This document shows positions 1,148 through 53,403 of a stretch of DNA of 64,000 nucleotides, one piece after another. The notes below the pieces were generated by a model. The model was not told where the DNA came from, searched no databases, and saw only the letters and a program-made list of their open reading frames with translations. Within the stretch, counting starts at the first letter, position 1, and each line of letters starts with the position of its first letter. Made by a program: the position numbers and the translations under genes. This stretch comes from Natronolimnobius sp. AArcel1 (GTDB lineage: Archaea; Halobacteriota; Halobacteria; Halobacteriales; Natrialbaceae), in contig NZ_JAAKXY010000003.1 in NCBI RefSeq assembly GCF_011043775.1, forward strand, positions 558,001 to 622,000, given 5' to 3'.

Positions 1148-3931
1148 ATGACTGACTCCGATCGCACTGAGTACGACTCGGGCGAGTCGTCGTCCGACGG
1201 CGAGCCCGCAACCGCTGAGTCAGGTGGGTCACAGTCGGACTCGGCGACAGCAGACGGACCCCGCAGACGTGGCCTCACAGATCGACTGGCTGCGATAGAC
1301 TTCCGCGAGAAGTTTGGACGCGGGCGCAAACGTGGACGCAACAATGACGGCGTGGCGAGTGAAACGGCTCCCAACAGCACCGCAGACCGGCAGGACGCGA
1401 GTACTCGTGGCCGCGATGCTGGTGGCCGCGATAGCAATGACGGACGCGGAGACGATCCGTTTACCCGTCGAATCAATCCGCTGATCACGAATCGGCCGTG
1501 GACGGTCGTACTCGTCTTCATCCTGCTCACTGGGTTATTCCTCGGCGGAGCGATGCTTGGCGGTGGCGAGCAAGAAGCCGGAACCGACCAGTTCACCGAT
1601 GGCTCCGAGGAACAAGAAGCGTTCGAGGACATGCAGGAGAACTTCGATCGGGGCGTGCGTGATTCGGGTGGCACGACTGCCCAGTTGTTCATTACAGACG
1701 ATCGAAACGTTCTCTCGGAGCCGAATCTATTGCGAATGCTCGAGTTCCAAGATCGCCTCGAGAACGAAGATAGCCTAAGAGTCGAGTCGACAACGAGCCC
1801 GGCCTCGCTGGTTGCACTGGAACTCGATCCGTCGGCCGAGACAGCAGAACAACAGCATCATACCGTTGCATCGGCCTCACAGCGCCAACTCAATACGGCT
1901 ATCGCGGACGCAGATGAGAACTCGGGGCTGCCGGTGAGTACTGACTTTACCCGCGAATCGGCCAGCGCGGATGTCGCGCAGTTGGCGATTACGTACGATA
2001 CGCCACCGAATGCGGATACTGACGATCATGCGGTGCTTCAGTTCGAAACCCAGGATCTTGCAAACGAGATTGACGGGTTCGATACGGATGATAACGTCGT
2101 GATCTTCGGTGATGCAATCCTCGAAGAAGAAATGCTGCAGCTACTCGGAGATACCTCGATCGTGGTCTTTCCGGCAGCGATACTGCTGATCCTTTTTTTC
2201 CTGTTGGTTGCCTATCGCGATCCGGTTGATCTCGGACTCGGACTGGTTGCGCTGTTGATGACGATGATCTGGACGTTCGGATTCATGGGATTGGCGAATA
2301 TCCCGTTCTCGGACTCGTTAATTACGGTCTTCCCGTTGTTGCTCGCCGTCGGGATCGACTTCGGGATCCACATCATCAATCGCTACCGTGAGGAGCGAAT
2401 TGATGGGGCGTCGATTGGCGATGCGATGGGGATTACGACCGGGCAACTCACGACCGCACTGCTGATTGTCACGCTAACAACCGTCTTTAGCTTCGCAGCG
2501 AACCTCGTCAGCGAGATGACGCGTGATTTCGGGATCGTCGCTGCAGCCGGGATGATCTTTACGTTCCTCATCTTCGGTGTGTTCCTCCCTGCGGGCAAGG
2601 TCGGGTTCGACCGCCTCCGCGAGGGAACGCGATTCCCGACGTTCGGCTCGACGCCGCTTGGGAGTGAGGGCTCTCTCATGGGGCGAGTCTTGCCGGTCGG
2701 CGTCCACATCGCTCGCGTTGTCCCTGTTGTCTTCGTTGTCGCGATGCTCGTCATTGGCCTCAGCGCTGCAGCGTACGGTACCGGCGTGGATACGGAGTTC
2801 GACGACGAAGCCTTCTTCCCCGACGAAGACCGGATCGAGCAGTACGAATCGCTCCCCGGGCCACTTGCACCCGGCGAGTACACCTTTATGACCGTCCTCG
2901 ACCACCTTGAGGAGGACTTCGAGCAGGGCATGGAGGGGACAGTCACCGTCTACATCAACGATCCTGGGCTCAGAGACGATGGCGCGCTCAGCGAGATCGA
3001 CCGCTCCCTCGAGAATCCATCCGATGCGTTCGAAACGGGCGAGAACAATCGGGTCACGGATGCAGATAGTATCCTCTCGGTGATCGACTCGCAAGCGGCG
3101 GCCGATCCAGAATTTGCACAGACTGTCAAGCGATACGACTCGAGCGGAAACGAGGTTCCGGATCGTGAAGTCGATGCAGTCTACGATCACCTATTTGAGG
3201 ACCACGAGTCAGAAGCGATCGATCGGATGACGACCGACCGGAGCGCAACCCGGATCGATATTCCGGTCAGCGTCGATGCGGAACAAGACGAGGCAGTTGC
3301 GGCTGCTGACGATGTCGCAAATAGCCTTACACTGGATGCAACGCCAACCGGCCAACTCGTCATCTTCGAGGGCGTGATCGAGCAGACGACGGAGTCGTCG
3401 ATCACCAGCCTCATGGTCGCGTTCGTGCTGACGATGGTCTTTCTCGTGCTTTCGTACTGGTGGCTTGAGGGGCGGGCCGTCTACGGCGTGATCAACCTCG
3501 TACCGGTGTTACTCGCTGTTGCCTTGCTCGCCGGGACGATGCGCCTGCTCGAGATTCCATTGAGTCCGATCAATGCACCAATTCTCTCCGTGTCAATCGG
3601 GCTGGGCGTCGACTACACAGTCCACCTGATGCATCGATTTGTCGATGAGTACGAAGACTCTGACGACCTCGAACAGGCACTGTTCGTGACGGTCCGTGGG
3701 ACTGGCGGTGCGCTCACCGGGAGTATGCTGACGACTGTGTGCGGGCTTGGCGTCCTCTACCTGGCGCTGATTCCGCTGATCATGGAGTTCGGGCTCCTCC
3801 TCGCGCTTGGAGTCTTCTACGCCTGGCTCGCCTCGATCCTTGTCCTTCCCTCGACAATCGTCGTCTGGGATCGTCTGGACCGGCGCTACGACTCGCTCGA
3901 GTTGGATCGATTGCTCGGTTCGCGGTCATAA
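1148..3931 (+). CDS. RND superfamily exporter, MMPL family
   Basis: This 927-residue protein has the architecture of archaeal MMPL/RND transporters. An acidic, Arg-rich cytoplasmic N-terminus of about 115 residues is followed by a first membrane helix (WTVVLVFILLTGLFLGGAML, about 117-136), a large external loop, a cluster of helices at about 330-490, a second external loop, and a second cluster at about 750-915. The two halves are internally similar: both clusters carry a 'G(I/L)G(I/V)D(F/Y)' motif (AVGIDFGIHIINRY and GLGVDYTVHLMHRF), whose Asp is the family's proton-relay position. It probably exports lipids or hydrophobic solutes using the ion gradient. It may be co-transcribed with the upstream surface protein. 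The N-terminal hydrophilic extension is longer than in bacterial MmpL proteins. The family is clear; the substrate is not. Confidence 0.88.
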   Translation: MTDSDRTEYDSGESSSDGEPATAESGGSQSDSATADGPRRRGLTDRLAAIDFREKFGRGRKRGRNNDGVASETAPNSTADRQDASTRGRDAGGRDSNDGRGDDPFTRRINPLITNRPWTVVLVFILLTGLFLGGAMLGGGEQEAGTDQFTDGSEEQEAFEDMQENFDRGVRDSGGTTAQLFITDDRNVLSEPNLLRMLEFQDRLENEDSLRVESTTSPASLVALELDPSAETAEQQHHTVASASQRQLNTAIADADENSGLPVSTDFTRESASADVAQLAITYDTPPNADTDDHAVLQFETQDLANEIDGFDTDDNVVIFGDAILEEEMLQLLGDTSIVVFPAAILLILFFLLVAYRDPVDLGLGLVALLMTMIWTFGFMGLANIPFSDSLITVFPLLLAVGIDFGIHIINRYREERIDGASIGDAMGITTGQLTTALLIVTLTTVFSFAANLVSEMTRDFGIVAAAGMIFTFLIFGVFLPAGKVGFDRLREGTRFPTFGSTPLGSEGSLMGRVLPVGVHIARVVPVVFVVAMLVIGLSAAAYGTGVDTEFDDEAFFPDEDRIEQYESLPGPLAPGEYTFMTVLDHLEEDFEQGMEGTVTVYINDPGLRDDGALSEIDRSLENPSDAFETGENNRVTDADSILSVIDSQAAADPEFAQTVKRYDSSGNEVPDREVDAVYDHLFEDHESEAIDRMTTDRSATRIDIPVSVDAEQDEAVAAADDVANSLTLDATPTGQLVIFEGVIEQTTESSITSLMVAFVLTMVFLVLSYWWLEGRAVYGVINLVPVLLAVALLAGTMRLLEIPLSPINAPILSVSIGLGVDYTVHLMHRFVDEYEDSDDLEQALFVTVRGTGGALTGSMLTTVCGLGVLYLALIPLIMEFGLLLALGVFYAWLASILVLPSTIVVWDRLDRRYDSLELDRLLGSRS

Positions 3932-4102
3932 GCCAGCCTCCGTTGCTCCGTTGATTTGTGGGTGGGATTGGGTTCAATGGACTCGAGTACGTACCAGGTT
4001 CATCGGAAACGCGGTGAACGAGTGCGTTGGGTGGGAAATACGAAGCGAGTTGGAGTGAACAAAATGAGCGAAGTAAGCTCGGAATGCCGTGGAGACGGGT
4101 GA

Positions 4103-4130
4103 GTGAGAGTGGATTTCGTGTGCTTTCGAG
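4103..4130 (+). repeat. ORB-like repeat, copy L1
   Basis: The element has the core TGGATTTCGTGTGCTTTCG preceded by GTGAGAG. It is nearly the exact reverse complement of the element at 6034-6062 on the far side of orc1/cdc6, matching over GAGTGGATTTCGTGTGCTTTC apart from two bases at the left edge. Confidence 0.7.
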
Positions 4131-4328
4131 TATCATGGTGGGACGTTGAGCATACTGTGTTGAAAACCGATCAATTCAGGAACCAGCACACGTGAAAACC
4201 AGTATACGCGAAGTGCGTCGAAGCCGTCAGTTCACGGGTCGTATGTCACTCGGCACTCGAGAACAGACACTCCGAGATATTGCCCGCAGTACCCTGATCA
4301 CATGCAGTCGGTGCAGTCACGAGCCAGT

Positions 4329-4364
4329 GTGAGAGAGTACATTTCGTGTGCTTTCGTGCTCGAG
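4329..4364 (+). repeat. ORB-like repeat, copy L2
   Basis: This copy reads GTGAGAGAGTACATTTCGTG and then TGCTTTCGTGCTCGAG. It shares the ATTTCGTGTGCTTTCG core with L1 and the CTCGAG tail with L3. Confidence 0.7.
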
Positions 4365-4425
4365 GGTGTAGCGGAGAGACCGATGAGTGTGGCCACGCAT
4401 GTGAGAGCACGTATACACGCACTGA

Positions 4426-4451
4426 ATGAGAGTACATTTCGTGTGCTCGAG
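4426..4451 (+). repeat. ORB-like repeat, copy L3
   Basis: This copy reads ATGAGAGTACATTTCGTG followed by TGCTCGAG. Compared with L2 it lacks the TTCGTG between TGCT and CGAG. It lies about 130 bp before the orc1/cdc6 start codon. Confidence 0.65.
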
Positions 4452-4543
4452 GTGGCGCAACTGCCGGTGTAGTCCAACATCATCGGCAAAAGTCGTTGTA
4501 TCCCTGACTGGAAACGGAGCATGCGAAACAGACGAAAGGTGGT

Positions 4544-4551
4544 TTTAAATA
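4544..4551 (+). promoter_or_regulatory. TATA box of orc1/cdc6
   Basis: TTTAAATA is centred about 31 nt before the ATG. At this spacing transcription would begin at or next to the start codon, giving a leaderless mRNA as is usual in haloarchaea. Confidence 0.55.
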
Positions 4552-4578
4552 GTATTAGCGAGCAGCCAGTAGTACTGA

Positions 4579-5775
4579 ATGTCTGGCCCGTTTAGTGATC
4601 TAACGGAAACCATCTTTGCCGACAAGTCCGTCCTGAGCGAGAGCTACCAGCCGGAAGCGATTCTCGAGCGAGACGAGGAAATCGACGCATTCAGTCACGC
4701 GTTACAGGACGTCTTGTTTGGCCGGGAACCCGAGAATATCTTTCTCTACGGGAAGGCAGGACTCGGAAAGACTGCAGTCACGACGTACATGATGGGCGAG
4801 CTACAGACCGAAGTTGAGGTTCGCGAAGACGCCGACGATCTATATGTCCACGAAATCAACTGTAACGGGAAGACACTATTTATGGTGGTCCGTCGGCTCG
4901 TCAATACGTTATTACCACCGGACGCCAACCCGTTTCCGAAACGTGGACTCGGAACCGGAGACGCGTTCGACGAACTCTACACCCAACTGGACCGACACGG
5001 CGGCACCCATCTGATCGTCTTCGATGAAATCGACCATCTGGATGACGTCGATACCTTACTGTACGAACTCCCTCGAGCACGATCGAACGGACATATCACG
5101 GAGTCTTTAGTCGGAACTATTGGAATTAGCAACAACTACACGTTCCGCCAGTCGCTCTCGGCGAAGGTCAAAGACACACTCATGGAGACCGAAATCTCGT
5201 TCAGTCCGTACGATGCTGGCGAACTCCGAACGATCTTGCACGACCGCGCTGATCGTGCGTTCGTCGACGGTGCCTGTGACGATTCGGCAATCGCGAAAGC
5301 CGCCGCGCTCTCTGCGCAGGATATGGGGAACGCACGGCAGGCGATTGACCTGCTCCGCGTCGGTGCGGAAGTCGCCGAACGAGATGGAGACGAGACAGTC
5401 GACGATACGCACATCGAAAACGCTCGCACGCTCGTCCAGCGGGGGCGACTCCGGAACAAAATTCGCGATCAGACCGAACACGCCCAGTACATCCTCGAGA
5501 CAATCGCCAAACTCGAGAAGCGTGGGGATGTTCCAGCGCGGTCGAAGGAGATCCAAGAGGGGTACGAACAGGTGGCGACTGCATACGGTGCAACGCCGCT
5601 GACGACGCTCAAGAGCATCCAGGATCACCTCTCTGACCTACACATGCTCGGTTTTCTGGTTCGTCACGAGCGTAATAAGGGACTCAGCGGCGGCCAGTAC
5701 TACGAGTACGAACTCGATCTCGATCCGATGATCGTTCTCGAGACGCGAGAGGAGATTGTCCAGCCAAGGGAGTGA
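4579..5775 (+). CDS. Orc1/Cdc6 family replication initiator
   Basis: The 398 residues match an archaeal Orc1/Cdc6 protein. The N-terminal AAA+ domain has Walker A (YGKAGLGKTA, about 57-66) and Walker B (LIVFDEIDHL, about 144-153). The lid follows, and the C-terminus has the winged-helix DNA-binding domain (about 300-395). The protein binds ORB elements and loads the MCM helicase. Motif-bearing repeats lie on both sides of the gene in opposite orientations, so it probably marks and serves its own origin. Haloarchaea carry many orc paralogues, and I cannot say which one this is or whether the origin is active. The start is supported by a TATA box about 31 nt upstream. It runs alone, with no close same-strand partner. 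Confidence 0.93.
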   Translation: MSGPFSDLTETIFADKSVLSESYQPEAILERDEEIDAFSHALQDVLFGREPENIFLYGKAGLGKTAVTTYMMGELQTEVEVREDADDLYVHEINCNGKTLFMVVRRLVNTLLPPDANPFPKRGLGTGDAFDELYTQLDRHGGTHLIVFDEIDHLDDVDTLLYELPRARSNGHITESLVGTIGISNNYTFRQSLSAKVKDTLMETEISFSPYDAGELRTILHDRADRAFVDGACDDSAIAKAAALSAQDMGNARQAIDLLRVGAEVAERDGDETVDDTHIENARTLVQRGRLRNKIRDQTEHAQYILETIAKLEKRGDVPARSKEIQEGYEQVATAYGATPLTTLKSIQDHLSDLHMLGFLVRHERNKGLSGGQYYEYELDLDPMIVLETREEIVQPRE

Positions 5776-5802
5776 ACAACACGCTACTCACAACAGACCA
5801 GA

Positions 5803-5910
5803 CTCGCAACCGAAAGCACACTCGCAACCGAAAGCACACTCGCAACCGAAAGCACACTCGCAACCGAAAGCACACTCGCAACCGAAAGCACACTCGCAAC
5901 CGAAAGCACA
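5803..5910. repeat. Six perfect tandem copies of an 18-bp unit
   Basis: The unit CTCGCAACCGAAAGCACA repeats exactly six times, beginning 28 bp after the orc1/cdc6 stop codon. Each unit contains CGAAAGCACA, the reverse complement of the TGTGCTTTCG core of the ORB-like elements upstream. The array looks like a local expansion of the initiator-binding core. Confidence 0.9.
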
Positions 5911-5927
5911 CGAAATCTACTCACTCC
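5901..5927 (-). repeat. ORB-like repeat, copy R1 (inverted)
   Basis: The last unit of the 18-bp array continues as CGAAAGCACACGAAATCTAC and TCACTCC. The reverse complement reads GGAGTGAGTAGATTTCGTGT and GCTTTCG, matching L1-L3. Confidence 0.7.
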
Positions 5928-6033
5928 CTTTTCACGTAACACGTTTTCCGGCTGTCGAGTCAGCTCCGTCAACTGACTCCCCTGCGTACCGAACCGACCC
6001 CACTCCAGTTCAGTAACCCACACTCTCTCGGGC

Positions 6034-6062
6034 GGAAAGCACACGAAATCCACTCCCTTACA
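6034..6062 (-). repeat. ORB-like repeat, copy R2 (inverted)
   Basis: GGAAAGCACACGAAATCCAC and TCCCTTACAC lie here. The reverse complement contains GAGTGGATTTCGTGTGCTTT, the closest match to L1, nearly 2 kb away across the orc1/cdc6 gene. Confidence 0.7.
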
Positions 6063-6197
6063 CGCACTCTTATTCATCAGTGTAGCCTCCCCCCACAGGA
6101 GGGCACACCGATAGTAGGCCCTGTTCCACTGGCCGCATCACACCACCGAATAAGCAGTCCATTATTATGGCGCATCCGGCTCTCGAGATGGATACGA

Positions 6198-9155
6198 ATG
6201 CGAGTCTCGCAGTTGTGGCGGCACTCAAGCGCATGGCAACTCGGAATCGGAGTGGCGACATCGCTCGGGATGGTCTCGAGTGGCCACCTCGGGCCAATCG
6301 GTCAGATTCGGTGGGGCGACCGCGGACTCGAGATGGCCCCGTGGGTTGCAATCGTGACTGGCGTGGTCCTCTTTGCGGGCGTTTCCGTCGCCGTCGTTGC
6401 ACTCACACGACAGTCATCGACTGAAACCACCCACCTCGAGGACAGCACGACCACTGCAGATCACGACGAGTCCGTACTGCCTACCGATGCTCCCACGTCA
6501 GATCTACCGGCAGTCATTTCGGGCACAGATACCGCTGCAAGCCAGTTAGCACTCGTCCAGACAGACCACGGCGAGTGGACGTGGCGCGCGCTCCATCTCG
6601 AGGCGTTGGCCGAGAGTCCCACCTCTGCAGACTCGAGTACGACGGCCGTTGATCAGGGCTCACAGCTCCAGACAGCACTCGAGCGTGCCAGCGTTCGCGA
6701 ACTGTCCGACGCGGCGATTCGCCTCTCGAACGACGATGGTGACTGGACGTGGACGCTTATCCGTCCTAGTGGCGACACAGTTGCAACCGCTGCAAGTGAG
6801 TTCGACGATCTCGAGACGGTCGCAACGGCAGTAAGCCAGCTCAAAGATCGAGGTCCGGATGGAACACGCATCGATATCGGATCGGGGGCGTTTACCCTCA
6901 CGGAACGCGACGAGCGCTGGTACTGGCGATTGGTTGACGACGAGCGGACGCCGTTGGCAGTCAGCCCCGACGGAACCCTCCACCGAGACGAGGCCGCGGC
7001 AACCGCCGAAACCGTCGGTTCGCTGCTCGCGGATGCCCGGTGTATCGACGCCGAAACGGGTGCCGTTGAACTCCACCGCAGCGAGGATGGACCCGGTCGC
7101 TGGACGTGGCGACTCCTCGATAGCCAAGCCACTGAACTGCTCACCGCAACCGCGACGTTCGACGACCGGACAGGTGCTGAAGCGGCCGCGACGACCGCAC
7201 TCGAGGGTATCGAGTCGGCTGCCGTCCTCGCTGTCGACCAGTGTGCCTACGATTGTTACCCTGACGCAGGTGTCTGGCAGTGGCGACTCGTCGATGACAC
7301 GGATCAAGTCGTGGCTCGAGGGGCGACCGCTCGTCACTCACACGAGCAGACCAGACAGGCAATCAACCACTTTCGGAACGCGATACCGGATGCGACCATT
7401 ACAGATTTCGAGGACGCAGTGTACGAAATCCACCCGGCAGGTGCCGTTCTCGAGCGCGATACAGCGTCTGACAGGACGACACAGTCTGAGACAGCTGACA
7501 GAAGTGGCGACGACAGCGTTGACAGCGTCGCAGCCGCTGGCCAGTGGAACTGGCGGCTAGTAACTGATGACCGCACGTGTCTCGCAGTCAGTCCGGAGCC
7601 GTCAGCCGATGCCGGGCGCGCAAGAGCACAACTTGATCGGCTCCGAGAACAAGGTCACAATGCAACCCTTTGCTCGTTCGAAACCGCCGCGTTTCGAGTC
7701 TACCAGAGCGAGAACGGCGAGTGGCGGTGGCGGCTGCTCGATGCCGGCGGAACCGTCCTCGACGATAGCGACGCCGCCCATGACTCGCGTAACGAAGCGA
7801 TCGAAGCGATGCTAACGCTCAAAGAGCGCGCACCCGATGCGGCCGTCGTTGAAGTCGAAACCGCGACGTTCGAACTGTACACCGTCGGCGAGGAGTGGTC
7901 GTGGCGACTGCTCGACGACGCCGGGATGCTTGTCGCAACCGCACCAACCCGATATCCGAGTGTAGACGCCGCGAGAGAGGCTGCTGACCGCGTTCAAACA
8001 CACTCGAGTGCAGACAGCGTCACGATGGACCGGGCGACGTTCCAACCGTACACCAACTGCGACGGGGACGATGGCACCACTAGGACCGACGAACCGACAC
8101 CTACAGCCACCGAGGCCGGCACCGCTGCAGAAACACCTCGCTGGCACTGGCGTGTTGTCCACCCAAGCGGCGAGCTACTTGCCGTCTCGGGACGTGGGTT
8201 CGCCACGCGCGATGCCCTTCTCGAGCAGATCGACGAGCTTCGGGAAGTAGCGATGACCGAGCAGGTAGAGACCACAGGTCCCGTCACCGTCCAACTCGTC
8301 GGAGAAGAGTCCTGTCGGTTCCGCCTCATCAATCGCAATCGGACGCCCATCGCCGAATCGACACGGACGTACGAGACCCGCGAACGCGCACGCACCGCGA
8401 TCGCTGCCCTCGAGCGCACTACCTCCAGCGTCCCGGTCTTTACGATTGATGACGCCGTGATCTGGCTCGAGCGCGCAGCCGACGGCGACGACGGTGCATC
8501 TGATAGCGCGAGCGATGAAGCTGATGGTGCCAACGTGGCGGTCGAGACAGCGACCGAAAGCGGTGACGGGCACGATTCAACCTGGCGCTGGACACTGCTC
8601 GATGCGGATCGAACAGTGCTTGCACGCTCGCCGACGCAAACGACGAAGACCGCGCTGCAAACACAAATCGACAGGATGCGCCGACTCGCGCCACACGCCT
8701 CGCCAGTCGCGCTCACCGGTGTCTCGTTTGATCTCGTCGAGGCGCCAGACTCTGGGTCGGGTCCACCCACGGCTGCGGACGACGCTAGTGACCACACTGA
8801 CGAAATAACTCGAGCAGGCTGGCAGTGGCGACTCCTCGAAGCCAACGGTGACCCGGTCGCAGTCGATGCCCGCCCCGGTGGGTCGAAAGCCGACGTTCAC
8901 GAGCGAGTCGCAAGCATCCAAAAGCTACTGGCCGCAGCAGACGTCATCACCCTCGAGGAGCCAGTGATCGAACTGTACGGTGATGAGGAGTGGGCGTGGC
9001 GACTGATCGATACGACCGGCGACCCCGTCCTCGAAAGTACACAGACGTACCCGACACGGCAGGCTGTAACGGACGCGATTGCGACAATGCAATCGAGAGT
9101 CCCCACAGGCGAGATCACCGTCGTTGACGACGATTCGAACTCAGAGTCAGGGTGA
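6198..9155 (+). CDS. Membrane-anchored protein with about 13 tandem YegP/DUF1508-like units
   Basis: A hydrophobic segment near residues 46-70 (MAPWVAIVTGVVLFAGVSVA) anchors the N-terminus. The remaining roughly 900 residues are about 13 diverged repeats of some 65-75 residues. Each has a W-x-W-(R/T)-L-(I/L/V) strand (GEWRWRLLDAGGTVL, EEWSWRLLDDAGMLV, AGWQWRLLEANGDPV), a short 'A.S' strand, a helix such as 'SRNEAIEAMLTLKERAPDA', and a closing strand before the next unit. This is the plan of the small YegP/UPF0339 (DUF1508) domain, normally found in one or two copies. Acidic Ser/Thr-rich linkers separate some units. The role of the family is unclear, and the array may be a scaffold or a binding surface. 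The start could be the ATG at 6333 rather than 6198, which would put the anchor at the very N-terminus. The 3' end overlaps the convergent sugar transferase by 9 nt. Confidence 0.8.
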   Translation: MRVSQLWRHSSAWQLGIGVATSLGMVSSGHLGPIGQIRWGDRGLEMAPWVAIVTGVVLFAGVSVAVVALTRQSSTETTHLEDSTTTADHDESVLPTDAPTSDLPAVISGTDTAASQLALVQTDHGEWTWRALHLEALAESPTSADSSTTAVDQGSQLQTALERASVRELSDAAIRLSNDDGDWTWTLIRPSGDTVATAASEFDDLETVATAVSQLKDRGPDGTRIDIGSGAFTLTERDERWYWRLVDDERTPLAVSPDGTLHRDEAAATAETVGSLLADARCIDAETGAVELHRSEDGPGRWTWRLLDSQATELLTATATFDDRTGAEAAATTALEGIESAAVLAVDQCAYDCYPDAGVWQWRLVDDTDQVVARGATARHSHEQTRQAINHFRNAIPDATITDFEDAVYEIHPAGAVLERDTASDRTTQSETADRSGDDSVDSVAAAGQWNWRLVTDDRTCLAVSPEPSADAGRARAQLDRLREQGHNATLCSFETAAFRVYQSENGEWRWRLLDAGGTVLDDSDAAHDSRNEAIEAMLTLKERAPDAAVVEVETATFELYTVGEEWSWRLLDDAGMLVATAPTRYPSVDAAREAADRVQTHSSADSVTMDRATFQPYTNCDGDDGTTRTDEPTPTATEAGTAAETPRWHWRVVHPSGELLAVSGRGFATRDALLEQIDELREVAMTEQVETTGPVTVQLVGEESCRFRLINRNRTPIAESTRTYETRERARTAIAALERTTSSVPVFTIDDAVIWLERAADGDDGASDSASDEADGANVAVETATESGDGHDSTWRWTLLDADRTVLARSPTQTTKTALQTQIDRMRRLAPHASPVALTGVSFDLVEAPDSGSGPPTAADDASDHTDEITRAGWQWRLLEANGDPVAVDARPGGSKADVHERVASIQKLLAAADVITLEEPVIELYGDEEWAWRLIDTTGDPVLESTQTYPTRQAVTDAIATMQSRVPTGEITVVDDDSNSESG

Positions 9156-32429: not shown

Positions 32430-33086
32430 TCAAACGAGGTCAAGGAGACCCTCGAGCGAGTGAATTTCGTGTGCTGGCGTCGTCGGCAACTCGTACTCGT
32501 GGCGGTGCTCACGACGGATAAACGCCGCGTCAATTCCGGCCTTCTCGGCCGCAGTGACGTCGACGCGGCTATCGCCGACGTACAGTGGATTCGAGACGCC
32601 CAGCTCGTCGATTGCCGACTCGAGATAGTACGCGTTGGGTTTCTTGCGCTTGATTCCCTGTACCGTCGGCTCTCGCCCGTACCAGACCTCGAATCCGTCC
32701 AGTGCGAGGTGCTCGAGAATATTCTTGATCGTCTCGTGCTGGTTATTGCTCACAATCGCCTGCGGCACGCCGAGTTGCTCAAGGGCGGCGACGTCATCGT
32801 AGAGATGCTTTCTCCCGGCCGTGATCTCAGCACGTTGGGCCGCAATCGCCGCCTGTTCGCGAGCGCGCCAGAGCGTTTCGGCCTCGACTGCGTGGGTCTC
32901 AGCAACCTGTCGCAGCGAGGCAACGCTCGGGCTGATGAGCGTCTCGAGGTGCTCGTCAGTCGGTTCGGTGTCGCTTACGGTCTCGAGTGCTGTCCGCATC
33001 GCCTCGACCAGCACGTCGTACTCCGTCGGCGTCGTCAGGACGCCGTCGTTATCGAAGATAACCGCATCGTACGTGTTCGCTCCCAT
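32430..33086 (-). CDS. HAD superfamily hydrolase (phosphoglycolate phosphatase-like)
   Basis: This 218-residue protein shows all four HAD motifs: I 'AVIFDNDGVLTTP' (nucleophile Asp about 11), II 'AIVSNNQHET', III 'KRKKPNAYYL' (Lys) and IV 'LYVGDSRVDVTAAEKAG'. The helical cap inserted after motif I makes it a subfamily I enzyme, as in phosphoglycolate or beta-phosphoglucomutase-type phosphatases. The residue after the catalytic Asp is Asn rather than the common Leu/Met/Phe. The substrate is unknown. Confidence 0.9.
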   Translation of the reverse strand: MGANTYDAVIFDNDGVLTTPTEYDVLVEAMRTALETVSDTEPTDEHLETLISPSVASLRQVAETHAVEAETLWRAREQAAIAAQRAEITAGRKHLYDDVAALEQLGVPQAIVSNNQHETIKNILEHLALDGFEVWYGREPTVQGIKRKKPNAYYLESAIDELGVSNPLYVGDSRVDVTAAEKAGIDAAFIRREHRHEYELPTTPAHEIHSLEGLLDLV

Positions 33087-52550: not shown

Positions 52551-52987
52551 TGGGTATTTTCGCCGTCAAAACAACCGCGAGCCAGGAACGCACCGTCGCG
52601 GACATGATCATCAACCGCGAAGAGCCAGAGATTCACGCCGCGCTCGCACCCGACTCGCTCACGTCGTACGTGATGGTCGAAGCCGAAGGCGATGCGGCCT
52701 TGAATCGCGTGCTCGAGGATATCCCACACGCGCGTAGCATCGTCCCTGGCGAATCCGACATTTCCGAGGTTGAGCATTTCCTCTCGCCAAAACCAGACGT
52801 CGAGGGAATCGCAGAGGGTGACATCGTCGAACTCATCGCTGGCCCGTTCAAAGGCGAGAAAGCACAGGTACAGCGCATCGACGAAGGCAAAGATCAGGTG
52901 ACCGTCGAACTGTACGAGGCGACGGTTCCGATCCCAGTGACGGTTCGGGGCGACCAGATTCGAGTGCTCGACAGCGACGAGCGATAG
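52550..52987 (+). CDS. spt5: Transcription elongation factor Spt5/NusG
   Basis: The 145 residues have the NGN domain (about 1-80), beginning '[20 protein letters not shown]', and the KOW domain (about 85-140), '[20 protein letters not shown]' then '[20 protein letters not shown]'. It binds the clamp of RNA polymerase and links it to the ribosome. It overlaps secE by one base. The last 51 bp of the gene are repeated twice more in the downstream tandem repeat, so the ancestral unit includes coding sequence. Confidence 0.95.
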
Positions 52988-53006
52988 CGAGTCGGAAAGT
53001 TTTATA

Positions 53007-53066
53007 CTAAATTTTGCAAGGAGCGGTGCCGACGCGAAGCGAGGCACCCGACGACGTAAAATTTAG
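53007..53066. terminator. Large two-part hairpin in repeat copy 1 (equivalent at 53141-53200)
   Basis: CTAAATTTT (53007-53015) pairs with AAAATTTAG (53058-53066), and the inner GGTGCC (53025-53030) pairs with GGCACC (53043-53048) around a 12-base loop. The element lies between convergent genes, so it may end transcription from both sides. Its U/A-rich outer arms resemble a bidirectional terminator. Confidence 0.5.
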
Positions 53067-53271
53067 CCACGTGACGGTTCGGGGCGACCAGATTCGAGTG
53101 CTCGACAGCGACGAGCGATAGCGAGTCGGAAAGTTTTATACTAAATTTTGCAAGGAGCGGTGCCGACGCGAAGCGAGGCACCCGACGACGTAAAATTTAG
53201 CCACGTGACGGTTCGGGGCGACCAGATTCGAGTGCTCGACAGCGACGAGCGATAGCGAGTGTACTTTTATA

Positions 53272-53331
53272 CTACATTTTGCACGGAGCGGTTCAGAGCG
53301 GAGCGATGGACCCCGACGGCGTGAACTGTAG
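53272..53331. terminator. Diverged hairpin in repeat copy 3
   Basis: CTACA (53272-53276) pairs with TGTAG (53327-53331), and GGTTCA (53290-53295) pairs with TGGACC (53307-53312) with one wobble. Both stems differ in sequence from copies 1 and 2, yet pairing is retained. Confidence 0.5.
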
Positions 53332-53403
53332 CTACGTCGACAGCAGAACCGCTCGATGAGTAACCGGGCAACTCGAGTGCGAGTCGGCCTGTCCGACGAC
53401 GCG

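Follow-up and report, generated by a model that had tools for sequence, protein, structure and literature searches.

The orc1/cdc6 initiator gene of Natronolimnobius sp. AArcel1 described here is enclosed by inverted ORB-like elements, and gene and elements together appear to form a self-contained module of initiator and cognate ORBs. The module is probably a replication origin, either active or dormant, in which the initiator would also regulate its own gene and be titrated. As judged from the sequences, it is highly probable that Orc1 and the repeats are a cognate protein/site set, and likely that the locus can serve as an origin under some conditions at least. The gene occupies positions 4579 to 5775 (+ strand) of the analysed window (the whole 64,000-nucleotide stretch of contig NZ_JAAKXY010000003.1) and encodes a 398 aa protein with an AAA+ ATPase domain, a Cdc6 lid and a C-terminal winged helix (TIGR02928, 394.5 bits; Cdc6_lid, 2e-19; Cdc6_C, 2e-19); among structures, it matches 2v1u (2e-51) and 2qby_A (3e-45). 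Like the Orc/Cdc6 proteins used to define predicted origins (PMC3528665), the product is longer than 300 aa and combines AAA+ with a C-terminal winged helix, and repeated ORB-like elements, five in this case and conserved in 40 orthologues, are found in the intergenic regions.

The element is 24 bp long (consensus GAGAGTACATTTCGTGTGYTTTCG), with a GAGAGT 5' extension on each copy; three copies are located upstream of the gene in the forward orientation and two downstream in the reverse orientation. On the + strand, these are L1 (GAGAGTGGATTTCGTGTGCTTTCG, 4105 to 4128; PWM score 37.9 bits), L2 (GAGAGTACATTTCGTGTGCTTTCG, 4333 to 4356; 42.3 bits) and L3 (GAGAGTACATTTCGTGTGCTCGAG, 4428 to 4451; 33.5 bits), the last being the copy at a near-fixed distance from the ATG; on the − strand, R1 (GTGAGTAGATTTCGTGTGCTTTCG, 5901 to 5924; 36.1 bits) and R2 (GGGAGTGGATTTCGTGTGCTTTCC, 6034 to 6057; 33.3 bits). 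A reversed tandem half-site, CGTCTG and CGCATG 9-10 bp apart (AGCATGCGAAACAGACGAAA, 4518 to 4537, − strand), abuts the promoter, the putative TATA-like box of the orc gene (TTTTAAATA, 4543 to 4551, + strand) being recognized by its sequence and conservation. The mildly AT-rich stretch between L3 and the half-site (4452 to 4517) is a candidate unwinding region. Downstream of the gene, an 18-bp unit (GTGTGCTTTCGGTTGCGA, − strand) is repeated 6.1 times in tandem without variation (5802 to 5911; TRF 100% matches, score 220); the array partly repeats the 3' half of the element, as in R1, and is not present in the nearest relative (L031). The 5' extension, the array and the half-site do not figure in the preliminary description of this DNA. 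Elsewhere in the window, a 134-bp tandem repeat is present in three copies at 52937 to 53337 (92% matches).

With up to three mismatches allowed, the core ATTTCGTGTGCTTTCG is matched 7 times in the window; the expectation is 0.52, and 0 of 100 shuffles reached 7. Five of these are at the locus (4113, 4341 and 4436 on the + strand; 5901 and 6034 on the − strand), and the two others, at 3439 within the MMPL gene (3 mismatches) and at 32464 (2 mismatches), are likely due to chance. Of the exact 14-mer TTTCGTGTGCTTTC, the whole genome (4.56 Mb) contains 4 copies, and none lies outside the orc locus; one-mismatch matches elsewhere in the genome are as numerous as those of a reversed-pattern control (4 and 4). 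The 24-bp PWM, scanned over 800 kb of the contig, yields five sites of at least 33 bits, all at the orc locus, followed by scores of 20.6 and 19.2, and none with the reversed control. The repeat set that the preliminary description placed beside the initiator gene is thus confirmed, with five flanking copies and the exact core confined to the locus rather than common genome-wide; its coordinates were exact on the right side and about 10-12 bases early on the left, and the mirror likeness that it noted between L1 and R2 extends to 22 of the 24 positions.

The layout is retained well beyond this genome. A PWM scan of 40 orthologues from the class Halobacteria (70-100% identical) detected 216 elements, 209 of them directed toward the gene: upstream, 105 are forward and 1 is reversed, and downstream, 6 and 104, respectively. 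Given that the PWM was refined on the same flanks, the count of 216 is not an independent test, but orientation and spacing are not imposed by the PWM. In 44 of 54 relatives, the distance from the start of the innermost upstream element to the ATG is 128-165 nt, and on visual inspection almost every orthologue has the promoter half-site beside its TATA-like box (partly counted). The 3' half of the element varies between lineages, and within a locus the upstream and downstream copies tend to match: at 53 of 58 loci they have identical bases 19-20, compared to a mean of 21.8 and a maximum of 36 after shuffling. The search of related genomes for the element beside orthologous orc genes, which had been proposed as a check, detected it in these 40 orthologues, and the suggestion of a lineage-specific origin type is not borne out, the module being found across the class and on plasmids. 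In two species, the gene seemed to be inverted between its flanking repeats, but this only reflected minus-strand loci that had not been re-oriented. Pairs of inverted elements, separated by about 160 bp, also occur in two genomes without an orthologous gene (L193, 5773 to 5955; L194, 5710 to 5892) and are possible empty origins, and at L199, 5623 to 6084, elements of this type lie downstream of a 31%-identical Orc on a plasmid taken as Haloterrigena turkmenica NC_013747.

Haloarchaea carry many Orc proteins and many origins per cell, and the variation of the element bears on how each Orc recognizes its own sites. Leu369, in the wing of the winged helix (codon 5683 to 5685, + strand), co-varies with ORB bases 19-20. 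Across the loci of the first set and the held-out set, Leu is paired with CT in 28 of 28 cases, Glu with TC in 14 of 14 and Arg with TT in 20 of 24, with the minor classes Gln-TT (4/4), Lys-TT (1/1) and Val-TC (1/1). The rule that the residue before SGG sets bases 19-20 was derived from 43 proteins and fixed before further loci were fetched, and the held-out element copies were located by the conserved 5' half only; in the held-out loci alone, which come from relatives of the first set and are not fully independent, agreement was 7/7 for Leu, 6/6 for Glu, 11/13 for Arg, 3/3 for Gln and 1/1 for Lys. Held-out locus L230 was dropped because it repeated an identical H. salinarum protein. The code is broken by two Halococcus loci, in which Arg goes with GCTAT, and by two distant loci whose sites are few and weak. 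Agreement of the half-site with the code was partly counted, as the automatic pattern missed 32 of 69 loci.

In an alignment with A. pernix Orc1 (2v1u), Leu369 is opposite the second arginine of SRGRY, which, by the offset of 12 derived from the R345/R346 pair, would be R369 of that protein. R369 is one of four winged-helix arginines reported to be close to ORB DNA, and the matching pair of Orc1-2, R381 and R383, is required for specific binding (PMC9738581). The match between residue and bases could conceivably stem from shared ancestry alone, without contact, an explanation that we consider possible although rather doubtful. The strict test of independent pairs, which is underpowered, leaves room for it (Leu/CT 4:0, p=0.125; for Arg/TT, 3 the same way and 0-1 opposed). 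However, the other protein columns evolved on the same tree, and yet the best of them makes 11 majority-rule errors, compared to 4 for column 369, the fewest of all; Arg/TT rows are nested within Leu/CT clades at several places; and residue 369 aligns with the reported DNA-contact position. A tree built without the wing implies at least 8 changes of motif class and at least 13 of residue 369. Thus, at the sequence level, the association between residue 369 and bases 19-20 is strong, and its phylogenetic test is underpowered. The wider proposal, on which we are evenly divided, is that a single wing-tip residue sets two origin-box bases and that such pairs were repeatedly re-tuned by changing the residue and, with it, every box copy at the locus, resulting in a readable specificity code that would help a cell to distinguish between its many origins.

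The earlier suggestion that the repeats are the cognate sites of Orc1 finds support in these observations, given that the flanking copies hold their orientation, change together and co-vary with one protein residue. Co-evolution suggests that Orc1/Cdc6 binds to the 24-bp elements to the left and right of the gene that encodes it. L3 and the promoter-side reversed half-site enclose about 66 bp, where helix opening and MCM loading might occur, and binding to the half-site would also close the orc promoter, so that the initiator would limit its own supply. By analogy with Haloarcula hispanica oriC2D, the reversed downstream copies, perhaps along with the 18-bp array, could act as an initiator sink. 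Specificity would be bipartite, with the conserved GAGAGTACRTTTC half likely facing the AAA+/ISM side and the CGNNTG-NN half presumably read by the winged helix, where, as the strong correlation suggests, wing residue 369 would set bases 19-20. Such a module would either fire in normal growth or serve as a dormant backup.

Numerous origins predicted in haloarchaea are dormant or inactive while the cells grow (PMC4595724), and it can be asked whether the sites merely control orc expression and titrate the protein, the locus being an initiator gene that regulates itself but has no functional origin, left behind by an integrated plasmid or chromosome segment. Several features are compatible with this scenario, which nevertheless appears unlikely. 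The promoter-adjacent half-site is conserved, and the AT-rich element is weak: no pronounced one was found at the locus, where a mild AT rise upstream of the gene is mixed with the promoter and the best 60-bp window is 60% AT, a value equalled or exceeded at 434 positions of the whole stretch. The distribution of the gene is patchy, with orthologues (72-96% identity) in 15 of the 124 other family genomes, 16 of 125 in all, and some relatives are decayed. In Halobiforma lacisalsi (plasmid NZ_CP019286), inverted elements surround orc fragments (residues 286-358 and 352-395) beside DUF1508; a second orc copy in Natronococcus jeotgali is broken; and the H. haloterrestris gene has an in-frame stop. 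Being absent from most family genomes and decayed in some, the gene is dispensable. Against the scenario, the number, orientation and spacing of the sites are kept in the 40 orthologues and the same module occurs on plasmids, which suggests selection for replication. GC skew, calculated over 800 kb of contig C3, does not switch at the locus and is uninformative here, as it is over 378 kb of C4, the intended oriC1 control; no valid skew control was available because oriC1 is probably on C2, not C4. It is very improbable that the protein is instead a transcription regulator of Orc ancestry with the elements as its operators, in the manner of Saccharolobus Orc1-2, a non-initiator with the same domains that regulates DNA-damage genes (PMC9738581): the half-site does abut the orc promoter, but with no other strong PWM sites in 800 kb and the exact core at this locus only, there is no visible regulon, and the downstream copies are left unexplained.

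As a probable origin module, the locus resembles oriC1 in its Orc1-type protein, inverted ORBs and a wing position homologous to ORB-contacting arginines (PMC9738581), but differs in the element sequence. The preliminary description held that this is not oriC1, and indeed, the probable oriC1 of the genome is at C2:528 kb, with TTCCACTCGAAACAAAGGGGTGGGGGG. No canonical ORB (TTCCA..GAAAC..GGGG) was found beside the orc1/cdc6 gene in L014, and one is present beside another orc gene, L016. Other orc genes of this genome (L009, L010, L011 and L016) have repeat families of their own, for example, TTCACATGAAACAGTGGTGTGT in both flanks at C4:420 kb, and at L046, 796 to 1154, a 47%-identical Orc is accompanied by nine GAGAGTACGTTTCCGCTGTTCTTT-like elements about 42 bp apart, with the same 5' half and another 3' half. 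In H. hispanica oriC2, ORBs lie on both sides of the initiator gene cdc6E, and the downstream cluster, oriC2D, restrains initiation by titration (PMC3936714); extra downstream copies could titrate the initiator here as well, but the element is without a G-string. Its consensus reads GAGAGTACR on the 5' side of TTTC and lacks any G run. The Orc1 described here is probably from a different family than Cdc6E, set apart by its distribution, since Haloarcula species retain cdc6E (PMC4441112), but within the genus of H. amylolytica a match above 70% was found in one sampled genome only, the others among the matches listed being at about 45%. Haloarchaeal Orc families each have their own ORB type beside the gene, some in both flanks, and are scattered among genomes (PMC3528665). 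The present family shares these features with the predicted origins adjacent to orc/cdc6, including oriCa and oriCb, the ORBs of which, in contrast, carry a G-string, with GAGAGT on the 5' side here. The H. salinarum DSM 3754 orthologue gave no match to the published primer sites of NRC-1 orc10 (oriCa), orc8 and others that were tried, primer sites alone being compared. In the literature searched, with most subscription journals outside it, no earlier report of the core string or of co-evolution of initiator specificity was found among the papers listed, so that the element without a G-string, its class-wide spread and the residue/base correspondence appear to be new.

Orthologues at 70-93% identity are present in many genera of Halobacteria, including Halobiforma, Halopenitus, Halorubrum, Natronomonas, Halococcus, Halobellus, Halogranum, Halobacterium, Haloarcula and others. 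The Orc/element module is also carried by plasmids of Haloferax mediterranei, Halorussus, Halocatena and Haladaptatus, and the plasmid relatives of Orc1, about 58-61% identical, are accompanied by variants of the element. The gene order CARDB, MMPL, orc, DUF1508 is retained in near relatives only. Adjoining the orc gene, a 985-aa protein with DUF1508 repeats (6198 to 9155; the HVO_2922 model covers 54 positions) also stays beside orc in near relatives, but diverges rapidly. This Orc family is a clean example of an origin module spreading, being re-tuned and being lost, and the one-residue/two-base correspondence across 72 loci suggests how initiators know where copying starts.
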